Shown here: piece by piece, positions 57,122 to 62,431 of the stretch
Layout: the number at the start of each line of letters is the position of its first letter
How positions within the stretch are numbered: position 1 is the stretch's first letter
Assembly: GCA_938001865.1 (NCBI GenBank)
Contig: CALLAW010000040.1
Coordinates: 1 to 64,000, forward strand
Source: an uncultured Saprospiraceae bacterium
Lineage (GTDB): Bacteria; Bacteroidota; Bacteroidia; Chitinophagales; Saprospiraceae
Length of the DNA: 64,000 nt
Reading direction: 5' to 3'
The notes under the pieces: generated by a model
The model's database searches: none
The model's input: only the letters and a program-made list of their open reading frames with translations
Told to the model about the DNA's origin: nothing
Translations under genes and position numbers: made by a program

Positions 57122-57961
57122 ATGAAGAGAAAGATAAGTCTAGCCTATAGTCCATGCCCTAACGATACGTATATTTTTGGTGGGATAGCATTGGGGTTGG
57201 TCTCAGATCAACTTCACTATGATATTACACTTGGTGATGTAGGATTACTCAACTCCTTAGGTACTCAGTCGTCTTTTGATGTCATCAAGATGAGCTATCA
57301 TGCGTGGGCTTATCTAACTGATGAATACCAAATGTTGCCATTCGGCTCGGCGCTAGGATTCGGAGTTGGGCCATTATTGATTGCCGATCAACAAGAGATG
57401 GTAGATGTTGGGAAGATACATAGAGTTGCTATTCCAGGTAAATTCACTACAGCTAATATGTTGTTAGACTTTGCCTATGGGAGTAATTTATTCGAGAAGG
57501 AAGTGATGATATTCTCAGAGATAGAAGCTGCAATCTCTAATGGTGAGGTAGACGCTGGGGTAATCATCCATGAAAATAGATTTACCTACCAGGAGAGAGG
57601 GTATCATTGTATCCAAGATCTAGGCCAGTATTGGGAGACTGAAACCAAGCTACCCATTCCACTTGGAGGGATAGCAGTGAAACGATCATTACCTGATGGC
57701 ACCAAGCAGGCAATCTGTAGAGACCTGCAAGAGAGTATAGCCTTAGCTGATAGAGATTTTGACTTGATCAGAGATTATGTCAAGCGGTATGCTCAAGATA
57801 TGGATGTAGAGATCATGAAGAAGCATATAGATCTCTATGTCAATCAAAGTACACGGGGACTCTCTAAAGAAGATATCAGAAGTATCGAGTATTTACTCAC
57901 TCACATCTCAAAGACAAACCAACATGTCAATCTTCACGCAGACTGGCTAGCAAATTATTAA
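57122..57961 (+). CDS. mqnD: 1,4-dihydroxy-6-naphthoate synthase (futalosine pathway)
   Basis: 279 residues from the Met at 57122 (MKRKISLAYSPCPNDTYIF); a Met at 57107 (MQLCK) is weaker. SPCPNDTYIF, VIKMSYHAWAYL and GVGPLLIA match the MqnA/MqnD solute-binding-protein fold; the opening SPCPND marks MqnD. It converts cyclic de-hypoxanthine futalosine to 1,4-dihydroxy-6-naphthoate in the alternative route to menaquinone. Other mqn genes are outside the window. ubiX, also here, could serve a downstream UbiD-type decarboxylase. An AACTTTG just before the start is only a partial promoter match. Confidence 0.93.
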   Translation: MKRKISLAYSPCPNDTYIFGGIALGLVSDQLHYDITLGDVGLLNSLGTQSSFDVIKMSYHAWAYLTDEYQMLPFGSALGFGVGPLLIADQQEMVDVGKIHRVAIPGKFTTANMLLDFAYGSNLFEKEVMIFSEIEAAISNGEVDAGVIIHENRFTYQERGYHCIQDLGQYWETETKLPIPLGGIAVKRSLPDGTKQAICRDLQESIALADRDFDLIRDYVKRYAQDMDVEIMKKHIDLYVNQSTRGLSKEDIRSIEYLLTHISKTNQHVNLHADWLANY

Positions 57962-58030: not shown

Positions 58031-58061
58031 TTGCTAAAATACTTAATATATGATATATTTG
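58031..58061 (+). promoter_or_regulatory. Consensus promoter inside the mqnD-adhesin gap
   Basis: TTG at 58031-58033, exactly 20 nt, then TATATTTG at 58054-58061. This is as good as the xerC promoter, but no gene of any length follows before the hairpin at 58103. Confidence 0.65.
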
Positions 58062-58067
58062 AATTGT

Positions 58068-58130
58068 GTAAGTTTAGGTTATTAAACTAAAAATTCGTTT
58101 TTGCTCGTGAAATGTCACGAGCATTTTTTA
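58068..58130 (+). ncRNA. Putative small RNA A (about 60 nt)
   Basis: Start estimated as about 7 nt after the consensus -7 box; end at the T-run. It contains AGTTTAGGTTATTAAA (58071-58086), where GTTTA and TAAAC can pair, a 16-nt A/T linker, and the hairpin GCTCGTGA/TCACGAGC. There is no plausible reading frame. Nearly the same block recurs 240 nt downstream before another hairpin. It could instead be the 3' end of mqnD mRNA. Confidence 0.45.
58103..58129 (+). terminator. Intrinsic terminator A
   Basis: GCTCGTGA (58103-58110), loop AATG, TCACGAGC (58115-58122), then A and six T. It could end mqnD mRNA (142 nt past the stop) and/or small RNA A. Confidence 0.85.
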
Positions 58131-58310
58131 TTTGTACCCATTTCATTTCTCCTCAATCTATGGAAGCATACCTCATTCTTGATAGAGTATAGTGTTGATA
58201 ATAAGTGAGTTATATAATGTTAATAAGATAAAGTAGCGATTTACAGCTAATTACATATACACAAAGTTTTATATTTTGGCATAGTATTTGGTCATACTAT
58301 ATCGAATATG

Positions 58311-58370
58311 AGTTTTGGTTATTAAATTGAGTATTGCCCGAGATCCCCAATCTCGGGCTACTTTTTTTTT
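58311..58370 (+). ncRNA. Putative small RNA B (about 58 nt), paralogous to A
   Basis: AGTTTTGGTTATTAAA (58311-58326) matches the block of unit A at 15 of 16 positions, followed after 9 nt by the hairpin GCCCGAGAT/ATCTCGGGC and nine T. No coding gene on this strand lies between terminator A and this one, so the hairpin needs a transcript of its own. The promoter match is weaker (TTG 58277, TATATCGA 58298). Confidence 0.4.
58336..58370 (+). terminator. Orphan intrinsic terminator B
   Basis: GCCCGAGAT (58336-58344), loop CCCCA, ATCTCGGGC (58350-58358), TAC and nine T. It points rightward, away from mqnD and against the leftward adhesin gene, whose own transcript would not meet a T-run here. Confidence 0.85.
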
Positions 58371-58450: not shown

Positions 58451-61400
58451 TTACAGTTTACTCCATCTTACACTATAGCTTTTGTTGTCTATAGAGATTC
58501 TGGTGAGATATACTCCTGGTTGATATTGGCTGATATCTATTCTGAGATCTTTTGGATTATTTTCTATCGTTAGTCTCTGTCCTTGGAGAGAGTAGATCTC
58601 AATTGAGTTTATTTCATTTTGGCTATGACCATCTAAGCTAAAATCTATCGTAGAGCTAGCTGGATTAGGGCTAGCGACTAACTTGAACTTTTGTTCGTCG
58701 ATATCTTGGACCTGTGAACTCACTTTTTCTTCTATCATAATTGGATCTGATACCAATTCGCAGCCATTATTATCAATAATTATTGCCTGATATTCACCTG
58801 GCATGAGATCAGTCAGATCAGTAGTGTTATAGTCTGTCAGCACACCATCTAAGTACCAATCGATCTGATATGGGAGGACACCACCGGTAATACTTGTAGA
58901 GATACTTCCATCATTACCATCTACTGTGAGCTCATCCACGATTGCATTTACACTTAGTGCTATGATTGATGGTTCTTCGATGACAACAGTAGTACTTGTC
59001 AGACATCCGTCTTGATCTATTGCTACTACATCATACTCACCGGCTGAGAGCTGATCTAAGCTTCCTCCATTGGCACTGACCTCGGTATAGACAACACCAT
59101 TATCATCAATGATAATCTCACCATCACTGCCGCCAAAGCAGCTGACTGAGATCACTGTTGCTGAGAGCGGGACTTCTGCAAGTCGAGTTACTGAGAACGA
59201 ACAGAGAGTGGAGTTGTTACTATTATCAGTCCCCATATAACTTACAACTGTCGTGCCCACCTCAAAGGGTGCTTGACTCTCTTGTCCTTCGGTGAGGGTG
59301 AGGGTTACAGACTCTCCGCAGTTATCCTCTGCTGTGAGAGTGTAGATTACTTCTTGGCAGTATGCGACCGTGAGATCAGATGGACAGTTGATGATAGGCG
59401 GTGATACATCATCGACGGTGAGGGTAGTGGTGCCGATCGCAAAGTTGCCAGATTCGTCTGCAACTCGGATGTCTACTTGATATGTTGCAGTGCCACAGAG
59501 TACTACGGGTTCGTACTCGTAGGTAAATGTCAAGCTCGTACAATTATCACTCGATGCAAGGTTATAAGCAATTGGATCAGGAAGGATGATTCCACCTGTC
59601 TCTGAGATCTCAATTGTTAATGGTTGGAGATCGACTATTGGCTTGATGTCATCTTCATATCCAGTCGTAATACCTGCACTGACCTGACACCCGTTCTGAT
59701 CAGTGACCGTGATTGACGTGAACTCTGATCCAAGATCAGTATCAGGAGAGTTACTACCGCCTTCCCAGACATACAGATATGGTGGTGATCCTCCCATGAC
59801 GATCGCAGTAGCCAGACCATCTTGTGTATCGGTACACGTCGGTATTGAATTGACTTGGATATCGATCGTCAAGGCACTTGGTTCTGTGATAGTGATTGAT
59901 TGTTGTGTAACACAATTGGCAGAGTCAGTAGCTGTCACTGTATAACTGCCAGCTCTCAATTGATTAGCCTCTTGAGGGATATTATCTTCATTGAGTACAG
60001 TGATGTCAAATGGGGGAATACCATTGATAACTTCGATACTCACACTTCCATCATCGTCTCCATTACAATTGACATGAGTGACTACAGTATTGATCTCTAT
60101 GAGACATCCACCAGCATTGACATTCTCGGCAATAGTGAGTTGACAACCAAGGTCGTCAGTGATCAAGCATGTATAGTTTCCAGGTGACAGACCAGTAAGA
60201 GTTGCTAGAGTATCTCCATTACTCCAGAGATAAGAGTAACTCCCGCTGCCTCCTTGTGTAGTGAGAGCAATAGACCCATCATTGATGCCTGTCTCTGACT
60301 CTGGAGTCACGACTGAAGTGTAAGAGAGCAATTCATTTTGCATGACAGGAATCAATCTTGTCACAGAACACCCAAGAGTATCTGTAACAGTAAGTGCATA
60401 TGTATCAGCGGTCAACCCATCAATATCTTGAGCTGTACTCCCAGTATTCCATTGGAATACATAACCACCATGACCGCCTATGGCTGATGTGACAATCTCT
60501 CCAGTAGCATCTCCATAGCAATCTACGTCTGTTACATCCTCTACAACGATGATAAGTGGGAGTACATCCGGTATTGTCACCAGAAAGCTATCGACACAAC
60601 TCTTGCTATCAACGACTGTCACCTGATACTGTCCAGAGACTAAGTCAGTGATCGTATCTCCTACCAGGTCCTCTGGCCAGAAATAAAAGTATGGACTCAC
60701 TCCACCAGTGGCATGTACTGCTACCAAACTTGTAGTATCATCATAGCAGATCGGCGGCACCAATGTATCTATCGTCAAATCAATCGCTAGCGGCTCTACA
60801 ATCTCATAAGTCTGAGCAGCACTACAGCCAGTCGCATCGATAACAGTATAGGTATATAATCCTGGACATAGATCAGTCAATCTACTAGCAGTCGTACCTG
60901 TAGACCATGATCCTGTGACATTAGTATTATTCGCTAGTCCGGCCTCTAAGATTCCATCACAATCCCCAATACAACTTACAGGAGTATTCTCTATAAGTAT
61001 GATCTCGAGGTCTTCAGAACAGTTCACTGTGATAGAGTCTACCTGCATGCAGCCTAGACTATCAGTAACCATTACCGTATATGTAGCACAAGTATCGATC
61101 ATTAATGTAGAGAGGGTGCTCCCATCGCTCCACTCATATGTGTCGTACTCTTCAGTAAGGCTAAGTTGCACTGGATTGCCAGGACAGATTACTGAAGGAC
61201 CGCTGATGCTAAATGGTGTCACTTGTAACTCTACGATATCAATATAAGCTATACCTGTACAGCCAGCCGCATCGGATACTACTACGTTATAGTTATTAGG
61301 ACTGTCGACGGTGATCGTATCTGTCAAGTCGCCAGTACTCCAAGAGTAGGTTGCATACCCTCCTGTTGCAACAAGCTGAGTACTCGTCCCTTCACAATAT

Positions 61401-62431
61401 TCGGTATCCCCTTCAATAGTCACGGGGAGTCCTTCTTCGGAGACTGTTACGAGTGTGTTAGCAATACATCCATTATTATCCATGACTTGGACATTGTACA
61501 ATCCAGCTATCAGGTTGATAGCTAATGGTCCTACTTGTCCATCTGACCAACTGTATTGATAAGGTGGATTGCCTCCACTTGCCTCTAATTCTACTTCGCC
61601 GTTTAACCCATTGAGACAGAGTGGAGAATTATTTGAGATTTCATCGATTTGGATTTCTGTCGGCTCTTCAAGTATCACAGCCAGAGTTGTTGTATTGTCA
61701 TTACTATCAGTAATTTCTACCGTAGTTTCACCTGCTTCTAATTCAACAGCAGGGTTCGTATTTTCTCCATTCTCCCAATCATAGAAGTAGGGTGGTGTCC
61801 CACCTGTAACATTTAATGTTACTTCTCCATCCTGTCCTTGGTAGCAACTTGGATCTATTTGACTTGCTATTGTAGCCTCCAAAGTCACGTTACTTGCATT
61901 GATAGTTGTAGATTCGCTGATGACCCTTACTCTATCATTGCCGCTGCCCGACCCATTGCCAATCACACCTGCGGCATGCATTGTCACTTCAGTTCCTTGA
62001 GGGAGGTTAGGTGCTGTCCAATCAGCAGTCCAAGTAAGCGGTGCTCCATTGAACGGATTCATCCCACTATGCTCATGATATTCTCTGCCACTTGAGGTCA
62101 TAAACGTGGACCCTGTTGATGCATTGGCTAGGTCTCCTGCATTGGCATTGTTGTCATCTATGGCTACCCACTGGAATCCACCACGGGAGGCGGCACCATT
62201 GGGATTGGTCAGTGTAATTGTAATCGGATAAGTAGTGTTAGCATCCACGGATGTAGGAAGACCAGTGATGGTCAATTCTCCATCTAGAGCTTGATTACTA
62301 CCAGTATGGCATTGGTTACAAGTATTTTCTCCAGGTGCTCCAGTTTTTCCATTTGGAGGATTACTAGAGAATGAGAGCAATAGCACTGCAATACCAAGAC
62401 AGAAGGCAATGAGTTGTAATTTATTAGTCAT
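58451..62431 (-). CDS. Giant SprB-repeat surface adhesin with CxxCH domain and T9SS sorting domain
   Basis: 1326 residues. Signal peptide 1-22; a choice-of-anchor/Reeler-type domain (about 28-180) that opens with ENTCNQCHTG, a CxxCH haem-c motif at 38-42. Then about ten SprB-type repeats of roughly 75 residues (pattern CxGxxDGxxxxxxxGGxxPYxYxWxxG...LxxGxYxVxVxDxxGC), an Ig-like unit, an HYR domain (about 1015-1095: PPIINCPSDLTVAYC), two more SprB repeats and the type A sorting domain (KLVASPNPASSTIDFSL to VRWSKL). SprB carries gliding motility in Flavobacterium; this much smaller protein may be an adhesin. Upstream is a 572-nt gap with a large hairpin in its probable leader. Confidence 0.88.
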   Translation of the reverse strand: MTNKLQLIAFCLGIAVLLLSFSSNPPNGKTGAPGENTCNQCHTGSNQALDGELTITGLPTSVDANTTYPITITLTNPNGAASRGGFQWVAIDDNNANAGDLANASTGSTFMTSSGREYHEHSGMNPFNGAPLTWTADWTAPNLPQGTEVTMHAAGVIGNGSGSGNDRVRVISESTTINASNVTLEATIASQIDPSCYQGQDGEVTLNVTGGTPPYFYDWENGENTNPAVELEAGETTVEITDSNDNTTTLAVILEEPTEIQIDEISNNSPLCLNGLNGEVELEASGGNPPYQYSWSDGQVGPLAINLIAGLYNVQVMDNNGCIANTLVTVSEEGLPVTIEGDTEYCEGTSTQLVATGGYATYSWSTGDLTDTITVDSPNNYNVVVSDAAGCTGIAYIDIVELQVTPFSISGPSVICPGNPVQLSLTEEYDTYEWSDGSTLSTLMIDTCATYTVMVTDSLGCMQVDSITVNCSEDLEIILIENTPVSCIGDCDGILEAGLANNTNVTGSWSTGTTASRLTDLCPGLYTYTVIDATGCSAAQTYEIVEPLAIDLTIDTLVPPICYDDTTSLVAVHATGGVSPYFYFWPEDLVGDTITDLVSGQYQVTVVDSKSCVDSFLVTIPDVLPLIIVVEDVTDVDCYGDATGEIVTSAIGGHGGYVFQWNTGSTAQDIDGLTADTYALTVTDTLGCSVTRLIPVMQNELLSYTSVVTPESETGINDGSIALTTQGGSGSYSYLWSNGDTLATLTGLSPGNYTCLITDDLGCQLTIAENVNAGGCLIEINTVVTHVNCNGDDDGSVSIEVINGIPPFDITVLNEDNIPQEANQLRAGSYTVTATDSANCVTQQSITITEPSALTIDIQVNSIPTCTDTQDGLATAIVMGGSPPYLYVWEGGSNSPDTDLGSEFTSITVTDQNGCQVSAGITTGYEDDIKPIVDLQPLTIEISETGGIILPDPIAYNLASSDNCTSLTFTYEYEPVVLCGTATYQVDIRVADESGNFAIGTTTLTVDDVSPPIINCPSDLTVAYCQEVIYTLTAEDNCGESVTLTLTEGQESQAPFEVGTTVVSYMGTDNSNNSTLCSFSVTRLAEVPLSATVISVSCFGGSDGEIIIDDNGVVYTEVSANGGSLDQLSAGEYDVVAIDQDGCLTSTTVVIEEPSIIALSVNAIVDELTVDGNDGSISTSITGGVLPYQIDWYLDGVLTDYNTTDLTDLMPGEYQAIIIDNNGCELVSDPIMIEEKVSSQVQDIDEQKFKLVASPNPASSTIDFSLDGHSQNEINSIEIYSLQGQRLTIENNPKDLRIDISQYQPGVYLTRISIDNKSYSVRWSKL

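Follow-up and report, generated by a model that had tools for sequence, protein, structure and literature searches.

Two putative sibling small RNAs of Saprospiraceae with a common 5' head and different promoter classes

Units A and B between two protein genes

The window, i.e. the whole stretch of 64,000 nucleotides analysed here, belongs to contig C40 of a Saprospiraceae genome of 3.58 Mb (G000). Two short units, A and B, lie between a plus-strand ORF (57122–57961), which we take from its sequence to be mqnD-like, and a convergent minus-strand neighbour (58451–62431), read as an ORF only and coding for a repeat protein of 1326 aa. The shared block of the original prediction is present as described: AGTTTAGGTTATTAAA at 58071–58086 and AGTTTTGGTTATTAAA at 58311–58326 are identical in 15 of 16 nt, and hairpins follow 16 nt (A) and 9 nt (B) past the block, with a T run after each. 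These hairpins, GCTCGTGAAATGTCACGAGC in A (58103–58122) and GCCCGAGATCCCCAATCTCGGGC in B (58336–58358), form with their T runs two intrinsic terminators on the plus strand, at 58103–58130 in A (a covarying stem of 8 pairs) and at 58336–58369 in B (6 of 8 stem pairs changed on both sides among relatives). Because the gene after B is convergent, the terminator of B ends no other plus-strand gene there, as had been pointed out from the start.

Unit A (58066–58130, plus strand) is a predicted sRNA of ∼65 nt, its start placed from the −7 box and its end from the T run. Unit B (58303–58370, plus strand) is a predicted sRNA of ∼66 nt, with a putative start 12 nt past the −12 element. Within the block, the core of B (58312–58325, plus strand) is the family core GTTTTGGTTATTAA, and that of A (58072–58085, plus strand), GTTTAGGTTATTAA, deviates from it by a single T-to-A change. 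In the region 58072–58098 the A core reads GTTTAGG instead of GTTTTGG, and the letters downstream differ too (TAAACTAAAAA). With these changes a 5' stem UUUAG/CUAAA becomes possible in the window's A, and pairing with targets would be weakened.

The promoter of A, TTG-N20-TATATTTG (58031–58061, plus strand; −7 box at 58054–58061), is of the Bacteroidota primary-sigma type and an exact match, as claimed at the outset. A second promoter, missed at that time, precedes B: TGGCATAGTATTTGG (TGGCAT-AGTAT-TTGG; 58277–58291, plus strand) fits the −24/−12 elements of sigma54 promoters by sequence and spacing.

Searched with up to three mismatches, the block has three matches in the 64-kb window against 1.45 expected, and 20 of 100 shuffled sequences reach three as well. 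That it stands above chance follows from its conservation in relatives, not from counts inside the window. Elsewhere in the genome, the B head occurs a third time, as GTCTTGGTTATTAAATTGAGTAATGCCC, just past another terminator-like hairpin (L059; G000:C65:25968–25998). This copy has neither a sigma54 element nor a clear terminator of its own and is perhaps a decayed unit.

Conservation, promoter classes and arrays

Comparison of the intergenic stretch with 60 relatives by BLASTN gives matches in 11 genomes, own genome included, mostly with A and B as separate islands; the tandem pair after the mqnD-like gene recurs in G001, G003 and G020. A scan of 84,980 species (one genome each) yields 77 stretches and, after removal of 11 non-unit candidates and with no unit in L081, L105 and L121, 74 loci with 50 A and 62 B units. 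Most loci are labelled Saprospiraceae or Saprospirales, some just Bacteroidetes or Bacteroidota, and one (L127) Chitinophagales; in these searches the family turns up in Saprospiraceae and close kin only. Among the carriers of A units are the cultured Portibacter marinus 10MBP4-2-1 (L115) and P. lacus YM8-076 (L122). Both classes are present in 38 of the 74 loci; in 37 of these, A lies 5' of B on the same strand, at 115–284 nt.

Two alignments, to each of which the window row was added, describe the classes: A1 with 45 sequences of class A (six A units left out, of which three lack a T run within the cut and three are identical to others) and A2 with 55 of class B (one without a T run, one truncated and six identical ones left out). 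The head letters are fixed by the scan pattern, and their invariance in A1 and A2 is thus not independent; matches by BLASTN and by covariance models are a less biased measure of head conservation. The terminator stems covary in both classes. In A, 99.2% of the cells are paired and both sides are changed in 50 cells, versus 11.1 in shuffles; in B the corresponding values are 93.6%, 34 cells and 10.0. In both classes the 5' head precedes the terminator, and for A RNAalifold adds a weak 5' stem without covariation. Model R1 matches the window at 58065–58131 with 77.7 bits and model R2 at 58305–58366 with 77.4 bits, the window row being part of each model. The covariance-model search proposed with the original prediction, carried out in 150 family genomes (E ≤ 0.01), gives matches to the A model in 73 genomes and to the B model in 43, the weaker of the latter including A units. 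Collectively, the 74 loci, the covarying stems and the model matches bear out the idea of a duplicated short-RNA family with a conserved head and differing hairpins; loss of conservation in relatives, named beforehand as a ground for rejecting it, is not what is seen. No Rfam family reaches its gathering score over the units of the window or of four other loci (L209, L212, L092 and L220); at E ≤ 10, the lowest E value is 0.43, far below the gathering score.

Across the family the promoter types divide the classes sharply. A −7 box TAnnTTT[GA] shortly 5' of the core occurs in 50/50 A units versus 1/62 B units, at a distance of 10 nt from the core in 45 of the 50, and TTG at −33 is found in just 15 of the 50. 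Conversely, TGGCA[CT]-N5-TTG is present in 58 of the 61 B units with complete upstream sequence and in 0/50 A units, with 14 to 21 nt between the −12 element and the core. These class B promoters show −24 GG and −12 TTG at N5 spacing; the TTG is extended to TTGC in just 15 of the 58, so the C is not conserved. The B units without a sigma54 motif are L085 949, L097 5906 and L111 156, and their hairpins are near-identical. Upstream of the −7 box, ending 20–23 nt before the core, 26 of the 50 A units (L064–L140) carry the dyad CATAT-N14-ATATG, which suggests an operator for some regulator. A count of 7-mers upstream of B, directed at an activator motif, is dominated by the neighbouring unit A itself. 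The sigma54 gene rpoN, at C5:83373–83846 in G000, is found in 145 of 150 family genomes and is so nearly universal that its co-occurrence with B carries no information.

Could B rather encode a tiny peptide, MSFGY (ATG AGT TTT GGT TAT TAA)? Of the 62 B units, 51 have the ATG in this position and eight a TTG. L082 and L112 have neither codon (a third exception, L075, is truncated), and A units read GTGTAAGTTTTGG, with a stop just 5' of the shared letters, yet the same letters are conserved in A. Together, the codon exceptions in B and the stop in A make a peptide very improbable.

In other genera, an A-type head (TGTAAGTTTTGGTTAaaaaATTGTAAGATTCGTTT) lies mostly behind sigma54-type promoters and is often repeated, as seen in 20 regions fetched from the weaker A-model matches. 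Four units, three of them with a sigma54 motif, lie within 0.6 kb in G127 (L209, C24); there are three in G019 (L212, C26), two each in G162 (L220, C148), G092 (L224, C20) and G072, and two in G120 that are 2.4 kb apart. In our reading, the primary-sigma promoter of A may be the derived state. A sigma54 element followed by GTTTTGGTT is found in 65 of 150 family genomes versus four for the reversed pattern. Five of the 30 such places inspected are without unit features and look like chance, and G077, G082, G150 and G154 have no such place besides featureless ones. In a phylum sample of 395 genomes the combination occurs in two family members and eight others; by eye, none of these eight has a clear GC-rich hairpin and T run.

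Genes that recur within 3.5 kb of the units are presumably, from their sequences in L064–L140, pseudouridine-synthase-like (36 of 74 loci), alanine-dehydrogenase-like (23) and transaldolase-like (23), and an ORF homologous to the mqnD-like neighbour recurs in 19 of the 74 loci. Intrinsic terminators so close behind promoters, and the alanine-dehydrogenase-like gene near the units at 23/74 loci, would fit units that act in cis on a downstream gene, as its leader or attenuator. Against such a role, the gene after B in the window is convergent, neighbours vary between loci, units occur as arrays and other mRNAs carry complements of the head, which renders it highly unlikely. We set this explanation aside, as we did the peptide.

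Complementary sites before start codons

Apart from the units themselves, the two places in G000 that best match the 16-nt block both lie antisense to the start of an ORF. The one on contig C45 complements the B head perfectly over 16 nt, with 10 nt between its core end and the downstream ATG of a protein of 1432 aa; the one on C83 is complementary over 15 nt and precedes the start codon of a 35-aa protein by 12 nt. The ORF on C45 has an alternative in-frame ATG upstream of the site, and the later start was chosen because homologues in G003, G134 and G020 begin there.

A search across the family for TAATAACCAAAAC with an ATG 2–30 nt downstream extends these two cases. Its raw counts are no evidence, since the reversed control gives ∼66 genomes versus 53; as the target genes were found by pattern, the evidence lies in their recurrence and in the position of the sites. 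Among 40 regions fetched from the matches, 26 fall into three target classes, one is a unit and 13 are chance-like, without a recurrent target gene. Class T-I comprises small secreted proteins (122–179 aa; 10 sites, all 8 nt before the ATG), T-II very large secreted proteins (11 sites, 8–11 nt before the ATG) and T-III membrane proteins of 34–36 aa (seven sites, 9–13 nt before the ATG). Altogether 28 sites are known in 21 genomes, 18 of which have a unit match by covariance models; in the other three (G096, G028 and G112) neither covariance model finds a unit. The sites form a conserved island within otherwise divergent leaders.

Homology is uneven among the classes. BLASTP links all seven T-III proteins and 10 of 11 T-II proteins (the contig end in G112 truncates the ORF to 41 aa); T-I splits into four homology groups (6, 2, 1 and 1) and is a class, not one family. 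By Pfam, both complete T-II proteins searched carry a type IX sorting tail (one below the cut-off), one of these two has dockerin and cohesin domains, and two T-II proteins have HYR_4C below the cut-off; nothing scores above the cut-off in five T-I proteins, one T-III protein and the partial T-II protein L332. Recurrent predicted targets appear to be surface or membrane proteins other than SusC-like ones. A partial site, TTTTAACCAAAACTCACTA, precedes two ORFs that we take to be TonB-receptor-like, L416 (G033:C6) and L417 (G151:C471), both in genomes where neither covariance model finds a unit. For array-type heads, the pattern TTTTAACCAAAACN{2,14}ATG (20 regions) reveals no clear gene family in array genomes; it gave further target-type genes in the B-match genomes G165, G111, G172, G160, G078, G073 and G168.

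The position of the complements was assessed with all occurrences of TAACCAAAAC outside units in G000 (7), G003 (9), G020 (20) and G111 (19), each counted as a hit when an ORF of 30 aa or more begins with an ATG 8–13 nt downstream. Nine of these 55 complements precede an ORF start, compared with a base rate of 1.38% (P = 6e-8) derived from 1.24 million strand positions (the window and L064–L140, both strands); shuffled 10-mers give 13/921. The 8–13 nt interval was chosen post hoc, and six of the nine hits had already come to light in the earlier searches; the three new hits among 49 complements correspond to P = 0.03. With an interval of 2–30 nt, fixed beforehand, there are 12 hits in 55 versus a base rate of 6.15% (P = 1e-4). 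Leaving out G000, where the sites were first noticed, gives 8/48 (8–13 nt, P = 3e-7) and 11/48 (2–30 nt, P = 1e-4). The strict rule for ORF starts leaves out two plausible T-II sites, L353 and L451. In the array-type genome G127, complements are not enriched at starts (1/27, P = 0.31), and the target model is therefore not supported for array-type heads; the five genomes together, G127 included, give 10/82 (P = 2e-7). The raw frequency of TAACCAAAAC is lower than that of its reversed control (282 vs 691 in 12 genomes), which we attribute to avoidance of TA.

In computed duplexes with its own two targets, the window's B head reaches −24.6 and −25.1 kcal/mol. When the targets are shuffled (300 shuffles), the means are −11.7 and −11.9 and the best values −25.5 (C45 leader) and −20.0. 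For the window's A and the same two targets, the energies are −16.3 and −13.3 kcal/mol and the best shuffles −18.4 and −16.3. For B with the C45 leader and for A with both targets, some of the 300 shuffles are thus no weaker than the true pairing. Because the core of A is mismatched and pairs less well, A and B may not share targets in G000.

In the T-III leaders, complementarity can exceed the core. In G000, G003, G020 and G134, B starts with GAATATGA 5' of the core and the T-III leader extends the complement with CATATTC past a one-base bulge; in G003, the flank match between the B start and the T-III leader spans 12 nt. In G160 and G035, B has another start and the T-III leader lacks the extension. 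The comparison covers six of the seven T-III pairs (all but G167); as G000 and G003 share a genus, the four genomes with the extension amount to at most three independent cases. Upstream of the T-III ORFs, six of seven leaders (L004, L343–L346 and L352; by eye) contain TGGTAT-N5-TTG, a possible sigma54-like element.

In Bacteroidota, A-rich stretches are a common feature ahead of start codons, and the complements might thus be a translation enhancer or another leader motif, conserved independently of the sRNAs; the three genomes that have sites and no detected unit would agree with this. Such a motif accounts poorly for a match to the sRNA head of at least 13 nt, for differences in the extension that track the 5' end of B in six genomes and for shuffled 10-mers of equal composition that stay at the base rate, and we regard it as unlikely.

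Alternatively, the shared head could mainly bind an RNA-binding protein that the RNAs titrate, as CsrB-type decoys do, with the mRNA complements being incidental. Conservation does run past the core (TTGTAAAATTCGTTTTTGCTC in A and TTGAGTAATGCCC in B), longer than a short seed needs, and the protein RbpB binds the FopS RNAs (PMC11697453). Titration does not, however, predict core complements before the ATG of homologous genes across many genera, nor their excess at starts in four genomes, and A and B diverge directly after the core; this explanation seems improbable.

Proposed mechanism and comparison with known systems

The reading that we prefer, with a probability of roughly three in four, is that A and B act in trans as sibling sRNAs, pairing with mRNAs ahead of start codons and thereby repressing translation, with B switched on via sigma54. 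Units, promoter classes, terminators, conservation and complementary sites are there in the sequence; what we infer begins with transcription and the exact start points and extends to cellular pairing, repression and the signals of A and B. Each RNA would be ∼65 nt long and consist of the conserved 5' head followed by the terminator hairpin. The common core would pair with a site 8–13 nt 5' of the start codon of its targets, namely the membrane protein of 34–36 aa, secreted repeat proteins of very large size and, among relatives, also small secreted ones. Since the sites lie in front of start codons, repression is favoured, and pairing most likely blocks translation initiation. Transcription of A would start at its primary-sigma promoter and that of B at a sigma54 promoter, which requires an enhancer-binding activator, so that the siblings may answer to different signals.

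It is tempting to go further, on a speculation somewhat likelier to fail than to hold, and to propose a lineage-specific regulon. In it, the RNA made on a sigma54 signal would use its seed to silence surface and secreted proteins as well as the conserved 35-residue membrane protein, whose leader carries the sigma54-like element TGGTAT-N5-TTG. Repressor RNA and target would then both be driven by one promoter system, as an incoherent feed-forward loop. The tandem A would feed the same seed from a housekeeping promoter, and the flank of the seed would co-evolve with the target.

The literature searched, with preprints outside its scope, yields no small RNA of Saprospiraceae. Members of this family are abundant in wastewater treatment plants (PMC9304909), where attachment proteins plausibly matter. 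The A/B family combines one seed under two promoter classes with naturally occurring arrays and with predicted targets, located before surface-protein genes, that can be tested. It would show sibling sRNAs splitting one seed between housekeeping and sigma54 promoters in adjacent genes, and the analysis points to a conserved membrane protein of 35 aa, the one member searched having no Pfam match.

By analogy, the family may work like FopS, Qrr and GlmY/GlmZ, and by the tests made it is a member of none of them. Qrr sRNAs depend on sigma54 and are among the Rfam families. As described in PMC4211561, Qrr of Vibrio comprises several siblings with one faithfully conserved core, as A and B do, and is switched on by the response regulator LuxO; the Vibrio siblings are distal, whereas A and B are in tandem and have no Rfam match. 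GlmY and GlmZ of enterobacteria are a sibling pair in which glmY is transcribed from a sigma54 promoter (PMC6075780, PMC4211561), and overlapping sigma54 and sigma70 promoters are named in the title of a reference cited there (PMC4211561). The GlmY and GlmZ genes are distal and a decoy mechanism with a processing factor operates (PMC6075780, PMC4211561), in contrast to the two tandem genes with one promoter class each considered here.

Within Bacteroidota, Rfp18 of Flavobacterium psychrophilum, needed for proper expression of secreted proteases, is likewise an sRNA tied to secreted proteins; it differs in being predicted to be strongly structured and to pair via its third stem-loop (PMC9723704). 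The same source describes a sigma54 motif (SM4) of this species, with a sigma54 regulon that includes gliding and exported proteins, and its available portion contains no link of Rfp18 to sigma54. FopS and GibS of Bacteroides, according to PMC11697453, are paralogous short multicopy sRNAs that pair near the starts of surface-protein mRNAs. Common to them and to A and B are a single-stranded 5' seed followed by an intrinsic terminator, short multicopy genes in Bacteroidota and pairing sites (predicted here) close to where translation of surface-protein mRNAs begins; like the promoter of A, those of FopS are of the primary-sigma type (PMC11697453). Differences concern the sigma54-type promoters of class B and the arrays; the targets, which are SusC-like transporters for FopS/GibS and, recurrently, apparently other proteins in the predictions made here; and Rfam, where the FopS structure is deposited and the A/B units have no match (PMC11697453 for FopS/GibS). 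FopS is the system closest in kind, and for sigma54-driven siblings the closest are Qrr and GlmY/GlmZ.
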